Assembly (NCBI RefSeq): GCF_002952775.1
Contig: NZ_CP025066.1
Coordinates: 2,604,001-2,668,000 of the forward strand
Origin: Halalkaliarchaeum desulfuricum
Lineage (GTDB): Archaea; Halobacteriota; Halobacteria; Halobacteriales; Haloferacaceae
Direction: 5' to 3'
DNA length: 64,000 bases
Shown: positions 37,167 to 54,411 of the stretch, one piece after another
How the letters are laid out: every line of letters starts with the position of its first letter
Numbering within the stretch: the first letter of the stretch is position 1
Notes under the pieces: generated by a model
Databases searched by the model: none
Told to the model about the DNA's origin: nothing
The model's input: only the letters and a program-made list of their open reading frames with translations
Position numbers and translations under genes: made by a program

Positions 37167-37390
37167 GGACAGTCAGCGAAGCCGAACCTGACGAGCGCCC
37201 ACTATATACGATCGAGATCAAAACATGTAGGACTATTTCCCCCGATCCGAAAGATTATTTTATATTCGTCCAATATAGGCGCATGTACCTGGGTTTCCCG
37301 CCACCAAATATTAATTGAGTATTATTATTTTAAGGTCTTTCCGGGTATTTATGGGGAAATGTAATAAGTAAACTACCGTCATGGTGTGTC

Positions 37391-37546
37391 GTGACAGTAT
37401 ACAATTCGCGTATCGATCCGTACGAAGCTTCCTACGACTACTACGAGTGTGTCACCTGTGGATACAGGGAGGTTCCAAGCGACGGCCCATCCGAGTGCCC
37501 CGACTGTGGCGGCTGGATGCGTGACATCGCCGTGTCCCGGGAGTGA
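37391..37546 (+). CDS. Rubrerythrin-like (rubredoxin-type) zinc ribbon protein
   Basis: 51 residues from a GTG. Two CxxC pairs (YECVTCGYRE and SECPDCGGWM) form a rubredoxin-like knuckle. It corresponds to the short haloarchaeal rubrerythrin-like domain proteins. The preceding 224 bp (37167-37390) are markedly AT-rich, with several TATA-like tracts, so the gene seems to have an elaborate promoter region. Metal is likely Zn or Fe. Confidence 0.75.
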   Translation: MTVYNSRIDPYEASYDYYECVTCGYREVPSDGPSECPDCGGWMRDIAVSRE

Positions 37547-37563: not shown

Positions 37564-38535
37564 TCACACCGACTGGTCGTCGGTGTAATAATCCATGACG
37601 CCAGCGTAGTGATCGAGGACGAGCACGATTGCCGCGCCGACGGCGGCAGCCGCGAGAAACGTCGCCAGCACCGACGGCGTCCAGGCGCGACCACTTTCAG
37701 CGAGCGCCAGGTCGGCCTGGACCACCGGGGCCCGCAGTGCTCCCGCCACCAGCGCGACGAGGAAAGCGAACGTGGCGCCCCGATACCGCGCCAGCGCGAA
37801 ACGCACCCCGTGGGCGACCGTAAAGAGGCCGACGACGGCGCCCGAAAGAAAGATGACGACCGGCGGTGCCGTCTCCAGGACAGTGGTGGTCGATCCACCC
37901 ATCCCGAACCCGAACAGCGCGTCCACGAACCCCTCGAGTGCTCTGGACATGTATTCGTACTGTCCGAGCAGGATCAACAGTAGCGAGCCGGACACGCCCG
38001 GGAGCACCATCGCGCTCACGGCGATCGCCCCGGCGACAAAAATGAACAGCCCACCCGTGTCAGCGGCGGCTGCCGTCTCACCCGAGAGGAGAAACGCCAC
38101 GAGGAACCCGGCCACTGCGGCTGCCTTCCGTCCCCGGGTGTCGAGCGAGAGATCCGCAAAGAGAACGACCGCCGAGGCGCCGATCAACCCGAAGAAGAAC
38201 GCGAACGTGGCCACCGGGACGGTGTCGAGCAGAAACACGACCGTCCGGAGGACGGTGATCACCGCGGTCATGATCCCGACCCCGAGCGCGAGCAGGAACG
38301 GGCCGTCCATCTCGAGGAACGCCGCCCGCGCGTCCGGCAGGTTCCGGGGGTTGATCCCGGACAGGAGACGTCGAATTCGATCGGTATCGATCGCCGTAAT
38401 CGCGGCGACGAGTCGCTCGTAGATCCCTGTGATCAACGCGATCGTCCCTCCGGAAACCCCGGGGACTGCATCGGCGGCGCCCATACACGCGCCTTTCAGG
38501 AACACCGACGCCAGGTTACGGAGCGGGGACGTCAC
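37564..38535 (-). CDS. DUF368 polyprenyl-phosphate transporter (PopT-like)
   Basis: 323 residues, eight or more transmembrane segments. Two inverted PGVSGG-type repeats characterise the family: GAADAVPGVSGGTIALITGIYERL near the N terminus and SAMVLPGVSGSLLLILLGQYEYM in the middle. Bacterial DUF368 proteins recycle undecaprenyl phosphate by moving it back to the cytoplasmic leaflet. Here the gene begins 9 nt after aglB on the same strand, so the likely cargo is dolichyl phosphate released by AglB. That cargo is inference. Confidence 0.85.
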   Translation of the reverse strand: MTSPLRNLASVFLKGACMGAADAVPGVSGGTIALITGIYERLVAAITAIDTDRIRRLLSGINPRNLPDARAAFLEMDGPFLLALGVGIMTAVITVLRTVVFLLDTVPVATFAFFFGLIGASAVVLFADLSLDTRGRKAAAVAGFLVAFLLSGETAAAADTGGLFIFVAGAIAVSAMVLPGVSGSLLLILLGQYEYMSRALEGFVDALFGFGMGGSTTTVLETAPPVVIFLSGAVVGLFTVAHGVRFALARYRGATFAFLVALVAGALRAPVVQADLALAESGRAWTPSVLATFLAAAAVGAAIVLVLDHYAGVMDYYTDDQSV

Positions 38536-38544
38536 GATCGGGGG

Positions 38545-41500
38545 TCACCCGACGAGCGTCGGTGCCGCAAGCGATCCCTCGGTGTCGTCGTTACCTTCGG
38601 TTTCTTCTTCCTCGTCACCGTTGGTTTCTTCGTCACCGTCGGTTTCACCGTCAGTACCGTTTTCTTCCTCGTCTTCATCCGGCGCTTGTCCAAGATCGAG
38701 CGCTTCCGGTTCCAGCGTTACGCTCACGGGTTCGGGATCGTCGCCCACGACCTGTCCCTCGTGGACGTCTGTCGTGTCGACGAACTGAACGAGTTCCCCG
38801 TCCTGCTCTTCGATACCCTCCTCCATAACGACGTACTCGCCGGTCGCACGGACACTCACGTTGGTGTAGCCGTTTTCGGGCCCGTACTCGTCGTATCCGA
38901 TCGTCGAGTACGGCACGACGAACTCGAACTCGCCGTCCTCGTCGGCGGTCGCGTGCTGGGTGTAGGTGAACGTCTCGCCAGTGGCTGGCACCTCCATCGG
39001 CACCTGGGCGGTGACCTCCTGGCCGGGCGTGGCGTTTTCACCCTGGATCGTCGCCCCGGGAACGCGTTCGAACGTCTTCACCCACTGGGGCTGGGTTTCG
39101 ATCAGGTCTCCGGGATCGAGCCCGGTCATCTGTGCGGTCCGCTGGAGGTTGTTCGCGTATTCGGTTCCGGGGATCATCGCCGAACTCTGGCTCGCCTTCA
39201 CCAGGCGGTAGTGCTGGAGTGCGGGAACCCGCTCGCTGGGGTGCGGTCCGACGCCGCCGATCTGGGCGTTGTCGTTCTCCTCGACGTACGCTTCGGCTTC
39301 TTCCATCGTGTCGAACTCGAGGACGAACTCCTCGTCGCCGGTGGGCATCTGCTTGACCTCGATTTCCTCGCCGGTTTCGACGTTGGTGTACGTCTGTTCC
39401 TCCCACTGGACGACGATCGGGCGCGGATCCTTGGCGCTGCCGTGATACTCGTACAGCCGGACCATCAGGCTCTCGTAGTAGCGCTGGTCCTGGATGTACC
39501 CGACCGGCTGGGCCCCGCCTTCCTGTGGCCCCTCCTGGATCTGCTGCCACATCGTGAAGTAGAAGTCCTCCTGCTCGAGGTCGGGATCCTCGTCGTACCA
39601 GACGATCGGCGCGCCGAACTTCGAGCCGGGCGTGGTCATCTGGTAGTCGACCATCACGTATCGGGTGTTCTCGCCCTCGTCGCTCTGGCGAGCGAGTACG
39701 TCCCGGGCGTCGTCCTCGCTGGGCGCGAGCAGGAAGTTCGCGGCCTCTGTGGCGTGTTGCTGGAACGGGTTGGCGTTCGGTATGCGTTCTCCGATTGCGG
39801 TTATCCAGTGTCCATAGTCCCACCACGACTGCACGCCGTAGGCGCCATCGGGATAGTCGAAGTCGCCATCAGCCGGGCGCTCGTACGTGCCGTAGTACTC
39901 CATCCTGTTGTCGTACCCTTCGAGTTCGCCCGGATGAGGCGTCTCCTCGCTCATCCAGTCGAGGCTGTCGTCCCACTGGGTGACTGCACCCGGACCGGTG
40001 CCGGCGCCGGCCGCCCACGCCGGGGTGGCGACGGCCACGAGCGGAACCAAAAGCAGGACGACGACGGTCCCGACGACCATCACCTGCCAGCCCTTGACGT
40101 TCTTGAGATCGGCAAGCGACGGCTCTGCGAGGTCGATCCGGACGAGAAGCTCCTGCAGGAAGTAAGCGGTGAGAACGACGACGACGATCGCGAGATAGTA
40201 GTTGAACCGGGTCTGGGTAAACGCCGCGCTCGCGATGAACGCCGCCCAGACGACCAGGAACGTCTCCTCGACGCCGTACTCGACCCGATAGAACGCGCCG
40301 ACGATGACGCCGGCCGCGATCAGGAGACCGACAAGTTGCCAGGCCATCCCAACGACACTGCCGATCGCCGCGGGGATCGCCGGCAGCAGCAGAATCGTCC
40401 CGATGATCGCCATTCCGGCGACCGTGTATCCGGTGTCGTTCGTGTCCTCGCTTTTTATGAGCGGTTTCGCGAGCAGGGTGATCGCACCCAGCGCGGCGAC
40501 GAAGAACGCGAGGCCGTACTCGTCGATTATCCGCTCGACGGGCGTGACTCCTCGCTGCTGGAGGACGCTTTCCGCGAGGAACGGTTGTGCCTCGCCGATC
40601 GTTCGCGTCTCGGCCCCGGCGCTGAATCCGACGGTCCGCAGGAGGTTCGTCTCGATCGTGCTCCAGGCGTCCGGCAAGACGAGCGCGAAGACAGCGACAG
40701 AGAGCCCGATCAGACCGAAGGTGGCGGCCGGGTATGCGAGCGGTTGAATATCCCTCTGTTCCCACTGTCGAGCGAGAAATGCGAGGAAGATCGCACCGCC
40801 AGCCACAGCGAGCGGCAGGAACACCTGAGTGAGCGAGTAGTCGGTGACGCCGAACGTGAACTGATCGAGCGGGATCACCATCAACAGGCCCGTCACACCC
40901 ATCGAGACGGCGGCGGCGAAGGCGGCCGGCTCGGGACTATCGCCGTGGACGACGTCGCTCGTCATCTTGAGGACGACGAACACGCCGGTGATACCGACGA
41001 GGAGCACACCGGGCTGCCAGGTGTACATGTAGAGTGCCACGAGCACGCCGGCCAGGGCGGCCCACTTCGCGGGATTTCGAAGCGCTTCCACGTCGCGGTC
41101 GAGGACGAGTTCCCAGACGGGCTTTTCTCGTTCCGCCACCGCGAAGGCGACGAGCAGCCCGATCACCGCCGCAGCCATGAAGAACACTTCGCCCGCGTGG
41201 TGGTCGTAGAACCCGACGTTAGTGTAGCTAAGGAACGTTCCCGGAAGGAGTGCGAGCACGAGAATCCCGACGAGGCTCGCCACACGTCCGGCGAACCGGC
41301 GACAGATGAGATACGCCGGGATCGCTGCGGCAGCCCCGAACAGGGGCGACATCACGAGCATCACGCGCAATGCTTCAGCTTCGGTTGGGCTGCCGAGACC
41401 GACGAGGAGAATGATCGTCGCGGTAATCTGGTCGTACAGCGTTCCGAACTGGCCGACGAGACGGCCGTATGGGAACCCGGTCCACGGGTCGAACGGTAAC

Positions 41501-41727
41501 GTGTTCGGATAGTTCTCGACGGCGTACATCGTCTCCCGGTAGTGATACCACGGGTCGTTACCCCGGAAGTACACGTCGCCACCGACGATGAAGTTGTCGT
41601 ACGCCTGCAGACGGATCCACAGCATCACGCCGACGAGGAATCCCAGAACCGGAACGTGATAGTACTCCTGGAGGGTTTCGAGGACCGACGTCCCGATATC
41701 GTCGGCATCCTCACTCGATTCACTCAT
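38545..41727 (-). CDS. aglB: Oligosaccharyltransferase AglB (STT3 family)
   Basis: Transfers glycans from dolichyl phosphate to Asn of surface proteins such as the S-layer and archaellins. 1060 residues: an N-terminal multispan region (to ~570) with the first-loop acidic motif in GNDPWYHYRE, the catalytic WWDYGHWI motif at 635-642, then an extracellular soluble domain with beta-rich Ig-like repeats (PMEVPATGETFTY, VSVRATGEYVV). The C-terminal tail is Glu/Gly/Asp-rich. TATA at 41749-41758. Followed after 9 nt by the DUF368 transporter; aglG is divergent. Confidence 0.95.
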   Translation of the reverse strand: MSESSEDADDIGTSVLETLQEYYHVPVLGFLVGVMLWIRLQAYDNFIVGGDVYFRGNDPWYHYRETMYAVENYPNTLPFDPWTGFPYGRLVGQFGTLYDQITATIILLVGLGSPTEAEALRVMLVMSPLFGAAAAIPAYLICRRFAGRVASLVGILVLALLPGTFLSYTNVGFYDHHAGEVFFMAAAVIGLLVAFAVAEREKPVWELVLDRDVEALRNPAKWAALAGVLVALYMYTWQPGVLLVGITGVFVVLKMTSDVVHGDSPEPAAFAAAVSMGVTGLLMVIPLDQFTFGVTDYSLTQVFLPLAVAGGAIFLAFLARQWEQRDIQPLAYPAATFGLIGLSVAVFALVLPDAWSTIETNLLRTVGFSAGAETRTIGEAQPFLAESVLQQRGVTPVERIIDEYGLAFFVAALGAITLLAKPLIKSEDTNDTGYTVAGMAIIGTILLLPAIPAAIGSVVGMAWQLVGLLIAAGVIVGAFYRVEYGVEETFLVVWAAFIASAAFTQTRFNYYLAIVVVVLTAYFLQELLVRIDLAEPSLADLKNVKGWQVMVVGTVVVLLLVPLVAVATPAWAAGAGTGPGAVTQWDDSLDWMSEETPHPGELEGYDNRMEYYGTYERPADGDFDYPDGAYGVQSWWDYGHWITAIGERIPNANPFQQHATEAANFLLAPSEDDARDVLARQSDEGENTRYVMVDYQMTTPGSKFGAPIVWYDEDPDLEQEDFYFTMWQQIQEGPQEGGAQPVGYIQDQRYYESLMVRLYEYHGSAKDPRPIVVQWEEQTYTNVETGEEIEVKQMPTGDEEFVLEFDTMEEAEAYVEENDNAQIGGVGPHPSERVPALQHYRLVKASQSSAMIPGTEYANNLQRTAQMTGLDPGDLIETQPQWVKTFERVPGATIQGENATPGQEVTAQVPMEVPATGETFTYTQHATADEDGEFEFVVPYSTIGYDEYGPENGYTNVSVRATGEYVVMEEGIEEQDGELVQFVDTTDVHEGQVVGDDPEPVSVTLEPEALDLGQAPDEDEEENGTDGETDGDEETNGDEEEETEGNDDTEGSLAAPTLVG

Positions 41728-41763: not shown

Positions 41764-41809
41764 TCATCTCGCATCTCTCAGTCGCTTCATCTCGCATCTC
41801 TCAGTCGCT
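41764..41809. repeat. Perfect 23-bp tandem duplication between aglB and aglG
   Basis: Two adjacent identical 23-bp units (41764-41786 and 41787-41809), each containing CATCTCGCATCTCTCAGTCG. They sit between the divergent aglB and aglG TATA boxes, where a regulator could bind, or they may be a recent slippage product. Confidence 0.85.
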
Positions 41810-41879: not shown

Positions 41880-42854
41880 ATGAAGGTCTCGGTCGTCGTC
41901 TGTACGTATTCGATGGATCGGCTGGATCCCTTCTTCGAAGCGGTCGACAGCGTGCTCGCACAGACGTACGACCCGCTGGAGGTCGTGCTTGTCGTCGACG
42001 GCAACCAGGAGGTTTTCGAACACGTCGAGAAGAGATATGGCGCCGAAAGCGAAGTGGCGACCGAGTTTTCCGGCGAGATCGTGCGTCACTGTAACGAGGA
42101 GAACCGGGGGATCTCTTACAGCAGGACGAAGGGCGCAGAACTCGCGTCCGGCGACGTCGTCGCCTTCATCGACGACGACGGCGTCGCCGAACCCGAGTGG
42201 ATCGAGACGCTCGTCGACACCTACGAGCGCACGGACGCCATCGCAGTCGGTGGGTACGTCGCGCCCGACTGGGTGACCGAGAAGCCGGACTTCTTCCCGG
42301 AAGAGTTCTACTGGCTCGTCGGTTGCACTGAAAAGGGATTCGCCGACCACATGGAGGAAGTGCGGAACACGTACGGATCGAACATCTCGTACAAGCGGGA
42401 GGTGTTCCTCTCGGTCGGCGGATACGATCCCAACACCGGTCGGAAGGGCGACCGACACATCCAGGCACACGAGGCACCGGTCGGCATCCGACTGCGGGAC
42501 CGATACGGCAAAGGCGTCGTGTACAACAGAAACGCCGTCGTTCACCACAAACTGTTCGAGTATCGTGGGGAGTTCCGCTGGCTGGTGTTCCGGTCGTTCT
42601 GGCAGGGGTACTCGAAGCGGATCATGAGCGTGTTGTATCCCGATTCGCAGGGCGACGAGTCGGCGTTCCTCGGCAAGCTGCTGTTTTCGTTCCTGCCGGG
42701 CCGGCTGTGGTCGCTTGTGAAATCCCCTTCATCGGCGAACGCGAAACAGATCGCCGCGATCGCCGTCTTCACCGCAGCTGTCGGGTTCGGATACGTGTAC
42801 GGGCTGACGAAGTCGGAGCGGGAGGTGCTCCGGGAGGATATCGACGACGGCTGA
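41880..42854 (+). CDS. aglG: Family-2 glycosyltransferase, AglG-like
   Basis: 324 residues from the ATG at 41880. GT-A fold: KVSVVVCTYSMDRLDPFFEAVDSVLAQTYD, nucleotide-sugar DxD-type FIDDDGVAEPEWI, and GSNISYKREVFLSVGGYD. A membrane anchor (IAAIAVFTAAVGFGYVYG) is near the C terminus. In Haloferax, AglG adds a hexuronic acid to the dolichyl-phosphate-linked glycan. The adjacent UDP-glucose dehydrogenase gene would supply UDP-glucuronate. Divergent from aglB and convergent with aglM. Confidence 0.85.
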   Translation: MKVSVVVCTYSMDRLDPFFEAVDSVLAQTYDPLEVVLVVDGNQEVFEHVEKRYGAESEVATEFSGEIVRHCNEENRGISYSRTKGAELASGDVVAFIDDDGVAEPEWIETLVDTYERTDAIAVGGYVAPDWVTEKPDFFPEEFYWLVGCTEKGFADHMEEVRNTYGSNISYKREVFLSVGGYDPNTGRKGDRHIQAHEAPVGIRLRDRYGKGVVYNRNAVVHHKLFEYRGEFRWLVFRSFWQGYSKRIMSVLYPDSQGDESAFLGKLLFSFLPGRLWSLVKSPSSANAKQIAAIAVFTAAVGFGYVYGLTKSEREVLREDIDDG

Positions 42855-42919: not shown

Positions 42920-44308
42920 TCACCACGTCAATCCTTCATACGTAATCCCGTCGCGCCGCTCGATGACCCGTCGGCCGTCGACCACCACGGGCTCGGCCAT
43001 CGAATCGAACTCCGAATCCAGCGCCGCGAACTCGTCCCAGTCTGTAACAACCACCGCAGCGTGAGCACCCGACAGCGCTACCCTAGCCGATTCGGCCGCC
43101 TCGAACCTCAGGTGGGGGTACCGATCACGGATGTCGTCCACTGCAACAGGATCGTACGCGACCACGTCGGCACCGCGCTCGGTCAAACCCTCGATGACGG
43201 GCACCGCCCGGGAGTTGCGCGTGTCGTCGGTGCCGGGCTTGAACGCCAGGCCGAGGACGGCCACCCGCTTGCCGTCCACGTCGACGTGCTCGTCAAGCAA
43301 CGCCAGCAGCCGAGCCGGCTGGGTGTCGTTCACCGCGACGGCGGCATCGAGGAGCGCGGGCTCGTAGCCGCGATCGCGGGCCGCCGCCCGGAGCGCGTCG
43401 ACGTCTTTGTTGAAGCAGCTTCCGCCCCATCCCACGCCAGAGCGCAGGAACTGCTCGCCGATCCGGTCGTCCAGGCCGATCGCGTCGGCCACCTCGTAGG
43501 CGTCGATGCCGTACTCCTTGCAGACGTTCCCGAGTTCGTTTATCAGGCTGATCTTCGATGCGAGGAACGCGTTGTTGGCGTACTTGATCATCATCGCCGT
43601 CGCGGGATCGGTCCGCACGATCGGAACCTCGTCGGTGAGCAGGGGTTCGAAGACGCCTTCGAGGCGGTCGCCGGCCCACTCGGCGTCGTAGCCGAACACC
43701 ATCTTGTCGGGGTTCAGCAGGTCCGAGACGGCCGTCCCCTCCCGCAGGAACTCGGGGTTGGTCGCCATGCCGACTTCGAACTGGCCCGGTGTGTCGCTAT
43801 CGTCGGCTCCGTTCCCTTCTTGGTCGCTGGTCGACAGTTCGGGTTTGAGTGCCCGACCGAGTCCGCGTTCGATCGCGGGCACGACGACTTCTTCTGGTAC
43901 CGCTGGCGTGACGGTGCTCTTGATGACGACCAGGTGGCGAGCGATCTCGCCGTCTGGGACGGCGCCCGCCTGTTCGGCTCTCGCGAGCGCCTCTCCGACC
44001 GATTCGGACCCGCTCTCGATTGCGGCGATGTCGAGGCTCCCGTCGTCTCTGGCGGGCGTTGGCAGCGCGAGGAACGTGACTTCGGCGTCGGCGACGGCGG
44101 CGTAGTCCTTCGTCGCCGTGAGGTTCTCTCCGGCGTGTTCGGCGACGAGTTCGTCCAGCCCGGGCTCGTGAATTGGTGCTTCCCCGGCGTTGATCGCCCG
44201 CACGGGGTCCTCGTCGATGTCGATCGCGACGACCTCGTGACCGAAGTCCGCGAGACAGGCTGCAAGCGTGGTGCCGACGTAGCCGCTGCCGACGATAGTG
44301 ATGTTCAT
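42920..44308 (-). CDS. aglM: UDP-glucose 6-dehydrogenase AglM
   Basis: Two-step NAD-dependent oxidation of UDP-glucose to UDP-glucuronate, the donor for hexuronic acids in the N-glycan. 462 residues from the ATG at 44308. Rossmann motif [46 protein letters not shown], the [21 protein letters not shown] helix, catalytic Cys in [14 protein letters not shown] and the C-terminal [14 protein letters not shown]. An acidic insert ([12 protein letters not shown]) interrupts the catalytic domain. Upstream in-frame sequence to 44404 is outside the family and rejected. Confidence 0.93.
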
Positions 44309-44387
44309 GCTATCCTGAACTTGGGCGATCGCAATCAGCCTTCGGTTGTTTTCTGGCGGGTATTTTAACAGCGGTTGTGAGCTAACT

Positions 44388-44431
44388 CGCTTCGCCTCTT
44401 CCATCGCTTCGCCTCACACCCGCTTCGCCTC
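44388..44431. repeat. Three phased copies of CGCTTCGCCTC upstream of aglM
   Basis: 11-bp motif at 44388-44398, 44405-44415 and 44421-44431, spaced 16-17 bp. Similar GAGGCGAAGCG/GAGCGAAC-rich low-complexity runs are scattered in haloarchaeal intergenic regions. They could be binding sites for a regulator of aglM or simple repeats. The rest of 44309-44602 is GC-rich and gene-free. Confidence 0.6.
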
Positions 44432-53850: not shown

Positions 53851-54411
53851 TCAGACGCCGAAGACTCGTGCCAACCCGCGAACACCGGCCGCGGCGGCGA
53901 GCAACAGCGTGATATATGCGACGTTTCCGATCCCAGCCGCAAGCAGGTACCGCCCGGCCGGATAGCTCCCGAGTCCCGCTGGAATCGCCATCACGCCCCG
54001 TATTCCCGGGACCAGGTTCGAGACGGCCACGGCCCAGCCGCCGTACGCGTCGAAGTATCGCTCGACGATCGACAGTCGGCGATCACCCACGCGTCGTTCG
54101 ACGATCTCGGGTAGACGATCGAGCCCCGGGACGGTCCGCCTGACCCCGAACAGTTCCGTCGCCTCCTCGTCGAATCCGCGTGCGAGGGTCCACTGTCCCA
54201 GTGTGGCGGCGACTGCGACGGCACCCCCGAGAACCGCCATCTCCGTCCGGGTGGGGACTGTCGCTGCGACGTAGCCGACGAACACCAGCGGCGGTTGCAG
54301 GATCTTCCCGACGAACATCCCCTCGGCGTAAAAGAGGATCACGAGGATCGGACCACCGACTGTGACTGCGACCGCGAGCGTTCGCGAGACGAGATCGAGT
54401 TCCGGCAGCAC
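53851..54411 (-). CDS. DedA / VTT-domain membrane protein
   Basis: 186 residues from a GTG. About five hydrophobic segments. DedA features: FYAEGMFVGKILQPPLVFVGYVAA (re-entrant loop with conserved Glu) and YFDAYGGWAVAVSNLVPGIRGVMAIPAGLGSY, matching the F-x-R-x-x-PG-x-R motif. Some bacterial DedA proteins flip undecaprenyl phosphate (UptA) or phosphatidylethanolamine, so it may move polyisoprenyl phosphates here too; specificity is unknown. Confidence 0.8.
   Translation of the reverse strand: MLPELDLVSRTLAVAVTVGGPILVILFYAEGMFVGKILQPPLVFVGYVAATVPTRTEMAVLGGAVAVAATLGQWTLARGFDEEATELFGVRRTVPGLDRLPEIVERRVGDRRLSIVERYFDAYGGWAVAVSNLVPGIRGVMAIPAGLGSYPAGRYLLAAGIGNVAYITLLLAAAAGVRGLARVFGV

Follow-up and report, generated by a model that had tools for sequence, protein, structure and literature searches.

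Undecaprenyl-phosphate translocases have been described in two unrelated bacterial families. PopT and VCA0040, from Staphylococcus and Vibrio, belong to the DUF368 family (PF04018), and the V. cholerae protein acts as a C55-P translocase (PMC9876793); the UptA/DedA transporters of undecaprenyl phosphate (PF09335) serve the same recycling step, likewise in bacteria, and are unrelated to DUF368 in sequence. DUF368 is enriched in Halobacteria, and the Haloferax volcanii homologue, the only haloarchaeal one tested for polyprenyl-phosphate transport, complements, at least in part, a V. cholerae DUF368 mutant whose growth is defective under alkaline conditions (PMC9876793). The text of that study contains no match for N-glycosylation or oligosaccharyltransferase. 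Haloarchaeal N-glycans are assembled on dolichol phosphate (DolP) and passed to protein by the oligosaccharyltransferase AglB (PMC3871713; PMC11980604). In the literature searched we found no experiment on N-glycosylation or DolP for any DUF368 protein, no mention of DolP recycling in the agl papers, and no paper containing both 'DUF368' and 'aglB'; the companion PopT paper and older aglB-cluster surveys lay outside this search.

In the window, the 64,000-nt stretch of Halalkaliarchaeum desulfuricum DNA analyzed here, the two genes lie next to each other on the minus strand. aglB (38545..41727) is complete and encodes 1060 amino acids from an ATG start; DUF368 (37564..38535) encodes 323 amino acids from a GTG start, both start codons being inferred. 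The TGA stop codon of aglB is followed by CCCCCGATC (9 nt, 38536..38544) and then by the GTG of DUF368, a gap too short for a promoter of its own. The stop codon lies inside a GGGTGA sequence, in which a Shine-Dalgarno-like GGTGA overlaps it, and this element can act as a ribosome-binding site of that type for DUF368. The pair looks translationally coupled, because the putative site contains the aglB stop.

The archaeal AglB was assigned to the archaeosortase-A-associated STT3/AglB subfamily by a TIGR04154 score of 916 bits, above the cut-off of 450, together with its WWDYG motif (QSWWDYGHWI). Its domains are STT3, the AglB core and AglB_L1, and it ends in an acidic C-terminal tail. Its neighbor matched PF04018 ('undecaprenyl phosphate translocase-like') over residues 21-273 with 211.6 bits (E 1.7e-62; curated cut-off 26) and is present in one copy only in the 3.31-Mb single-contig genome. 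Against the two NCBIfam equivalogs for named polyprenyl-phosphate transporter groups it reached 172 and 81 bits, below their cut-offs of 400. It is thus a member of the PF04018 family, that of PopT and VCA0040, outside these two named groups. The sequence-only reading had placed a DUF368 gene 9 nt behind aglB on the same strand, and the coordinates and both profile matches bear this out.

Identity to the DUF368 proteins of Vibrio and Salinivibrio is 34-37% over the aligned length, and both PG[VI]SG motifs are retained; two such motifs were present in all 183 of the 183 archaeal DUF368 sequences examined. In the window protein they read PGVSG (residues 25-29 and 179-183) and coincide, one per half, with helix breaks at residues 24-28 and 178-182 of the predicted structure (pLDDT 91.5, pTM 0.86). 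The model predicts a polytopic membrane protein whose two halves each contain a broken-helix hairpin, and the helix breaks suggest an inverted-repeat topology. Solved structures gave no sequence match, and the PDB no significant fold match (best E 0.12). In ten linked copies, all from one family (f4; e.g., L004 and L041), the first motif is PGVSGAT and not PGVSGGT. Unlike PopT and VCA0040, the window protein is archaeal, is encoded with an oligosaccharyltransferase, has dolichyl phosphate as its presumed substrate, and comes from cells without peptidoglycan.

A family-2 glycosyltransferase gene (41880..42854, plus strand) diverges from aglB, and its cluster is the commonest 5' neighbor of aglB in the class. 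An AglM-like UDP-glucose/GDP-mannose dehydrogenase gene, also a glycosylation gene, follows (42920..44404, minus strand); with these two genes beside aglB, the surroundings of the pair are those of a glycosylation locus. Between aglB and the glycosyltransferase gene, the intergenic DNA contains an exact 23-nt tandem duplication (TCATCTCGCATCTCTCAGTCGCT twice, 41764-41809). At the other end a tiny open reading frame (about 37376-37546, plus strand), convergent with DUF368, encodes a CxxC...CxxC zinc ribbon (YECVTCGYREVPSDGPSECPDCGGWMRDIAVSRE). The sequence-only reading had also pointed to a DedA protein in the window as a second carrier-lipid transporter. This gene exists (53851..54411, minus strand) and encodes a distant DedA/VTT-domain protein. 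It scored below the curated cut-offs (PF09335, 31.3 against 33.9; UptA, 25.5 against 250), gives the weakest match among the genome's five VTT-domain genes, and lies outside the aglB operon, beside chorismate synthase and EPSP synthase genes, 12 kb beyond aglB and 15 kb from DUF368. As corroboration of carrier recycling it was therefore dropped.

To establish how widely the two genes occur together, 145 Halobacteria genomes were searched with the PF04018 and TIGR04154 profiles and the coordinates of the matches compared; a pair was scored as linked when aglB preceded DUF368 on the same strand at a distance of less than 1 kb. DUF368 was found in 144 genomes and aglB in all 145, one of them (G118) having only a weak match under the cut-off. 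A linked pair, such as that of the window, was present in 95 of the 145 genomes; these belong to 40 of the 59 genera and to 9 of the 10 families. Five further genomes had the two genes 2-3 kb apart. The gaps between linked genes ranged from -17 to 157 nt. In 64 of the 95 genomes they did not exceed 9 nt when the start nearest the stop was favored, and in 53 of the 95 they were at most 6 nt when only the first in-frame ATG was accepted; overlap of the stop and start codons is common. The adjacency is thus conserved across the Halobacteria, and its recurrence in 95 of the 145 surveyed genomes excludes both a feature peculiar to a single genome and a chance neighborhood. Roughly one genome in three, among them whole genera of two families, has DUF368 apart from aglB, and adjacency is therefore not required.

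Neighboring genes served as a control, in the 33 genera with a linked pair for which flanking sequence was at hand. Downstream of DUF368 no gene recurred in more than four of these genera, and upstream of aglB the maximum was 11, for the divergent glycosyltransferase. Median identity between genera was 45% for AglB (domain part) and 48% for DUF368, so that the pair has been kept together over distances at which other neighbors turned over. The identities of the two proteins correlated with r = 0.63; computed without a control, this value was set aside.

A search for related loci found aglB directly followed by DUF368 in Halopenitus malekzadehii, Halohasta salina, Halolamina rubra, Halolamina pelagica and Halostagnicola sp. 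A56. When gene order around the AglM-like gene was compared, an oppositely oriented AglM-like gene was seen between aglB and DUF368 in Haloferax marinum and Halogeometricum limi. In Haloferax profundi, whose locus is 92% identical to that of surveyed genome G078, the AglM-like gene adjoins DUF368, and the DUF368 gene of H. volcanii, HVO_RS12060, probably occupies the same place as in these relatives. The window locus resembles the agl clusters of H. volcanii and Halobacterium salinarum in uniting aglB, glycosyltransferase and AglM-like genes. The published clusters are drawn from aglJ to aglM or aglB (PMC5867893), or with aglB (Hlac_1062) as their edge (PMC10384203). Unlike the window locus as described here, they leave out the gene just past the boundary, which in the species examined is DUF368; this position offers a reason why it may have been overlooked in studies of the pathway.

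The history of the pair was followed in a tree of 188 DUF368 proteins, made with a quick method and containing several long branches, because of which deep placements are uncertain. Linked copies are class-wide and basal in this tree. The main unlinked clade (44 copies, support 98) is nested within the linked assemblage and confined to a few genera of two large families plus one more genome, and only six changes between the linked and unlinked states are needed. Both kinds of copy occur together in six genomes, and genomes without a linked copy carry an unlinked one, with a single exception (G021). In the f4 genomes that have no linked copy, the gene beyond the DUF368 position is still there, as though DUF368 had been excised from its site. 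One genome of this family (G116) retains a decayed DUF368 immediately after aglB (locus L198, 4100-4850, minus strand), disrupted by an internal deletion and a stop codon, and has an intact unlinked copy elsewhere. As the linked copy was lost in genomes that kept another, and given this remnant, the class behaves as if at least one DUF368 were needed per cell. The exceptional genome G021 (family f5, 120 contigs), the only one of the 145 without DUF368, has aglB and two VTT/DedA genes. Conversely, G118 (family f4, genus g23; 100% complete) is the only genome without an AglB above the cut-off (best E 1.3e-22); its DUF368 is unlinked only, and it is possibly a natural case of aglB loss.

Outside the Halobacteria, DUF368 is absent from most archaea of the phylum, in which DolP recycling therefore needs another protein. 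No adjacency of DUF368 to aglB/STT3 was found in 37 DUF368-bearing genomes of other classes. One non-halobacterial family (G208, G216, G232 and G294) has STT3 and DUF368 on one strand at a distance of 13-15 kb, but with no glycosylation genes in the neighborhood of DUF368, and this linkage was given no weight. Elsewhere in the phylum, many genomes from other classes (L204-L236) have DUF368 in a conserved block that also contains genes for a UDP-sugar epimerase and a phosphoglycerate-mutase-like protein. It is also common in Methanobrevibacter, Methanosphaera and Methanovirga (L257-L296), archaea with pseudomurein walls.

Taken together, these observations make DUF368 the best candidate for the recycling step of archaeal N-glycosylation, as it lies directly behind aglB in most haloarchaea and its relatives carry a used lipid carrier back across the membrane. 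We consider it probable that DUF368 returns DolP to the inner leaflet after its use by AglB. According to this model, aglB and DUF368 would form one transcriptional and translational unit, the two genes presumably being co-transcribed. On the outer side of the membrane, AglB would transfer the glycan of dolichyl monophosphate to protein; from the chemistry of this transfer, free DolP, a direct analog of the bacterial DUF368 substrate, should be left in the outer leaflet. DUF368, with DolP as its likely natural substrate and inward as its likely direction, would return it to the inner leaflet for reloading by the Agl glycosyltransferases, and N-glycosylation would be the main pathway served. 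Of the case made for such recycling by the sequence-only reading, the part that stands is the conserved adjacency, and the idea of recycling also fits both the assembly of glycans on DolP and the partial complementation by the H. volcanii protein; the argument from DedA has fallen away.

In the main rival explanation DUF368 serves all DolP pathways, including N-glycans, DolP-mannose and exopolysaccharides, as a general scramblase or translocase of polyprenyl phosphates, and stands beside aglB because both are constitutive envelope genes and not through any particular service to AglB. Conserved operons can indeed reflect shared regulation without a direct mechanistic link. A general role would suit the free-standing DUF368 copies, which have no common glycosylation neighbor. 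It would also suit the other demands on DolP, which is used by DolP-mannose and, as DolP-GlcA donors, in exopolysaccharide synthesis in Haloarcula hispanica (PMC9943897), as well as the bacterial DUF368, which serves the bulk carrier flux of peptidoglycan (PMC9876793). However, the linkage is specific to aglB and has been kept across nearly the whole class while other neighbors turned over, and we regard a general translocase as rather unlikely. It is extremely improbable that the two genes are neighbors through an accident of inheritance that has no bearing on function: a single ancestral joining would explain the pattern, with its six changes on the tree, but the pair was kept in 40 of 59 genera, compared to at most 11 of 33 for any other neighbor, and stop and start codons overlap in many genomes.

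An additional scenario is that DUF368 has another substrate or works in the opposite direction, for instance by moving glycan-charged DolP outwards as the main pentasaccharide flippase, or that it serves Na+/pH adaptation. The direction and energy source of DUF368 transport have been stated to be open (PMC9876793), and the flippase of the main Haloferax tetrasaccharide-DolP was left unnamed (PMC3871713). Arguments against this are the partial complementation of a C55-P translocase mutant by the H. volcanii protein (PMC9876793) and the assignment of Agl15, AglR and Agl29 as candidate flippases for charged DolP (PMC3871713; PMC11980604), which make such a role very unlikely. Recycling of DolP after AglB, the reading that we prefer, also has a stronger form, in which AglB and DUF368 would make up one membrane unit and the released DolP would be handed directly to the translocase. 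We hold this form to be unlikely; if it is true, the return of the carrier would be tied to each round of N-glycosylation. We know of no dedicated carrier-recycling step of this kind in other N-glycosylation pathways.

The class-wide pair brings together the oligosaccharyltransferase and a family whose bacterial proteins have been shown to transport polyprenyl phosphates. The question that it addresses is by which route dolichyl phosphate gets back to the cytoplasmic face after archaeal N-glycosylation, and for this route the pair names one candidate gene.
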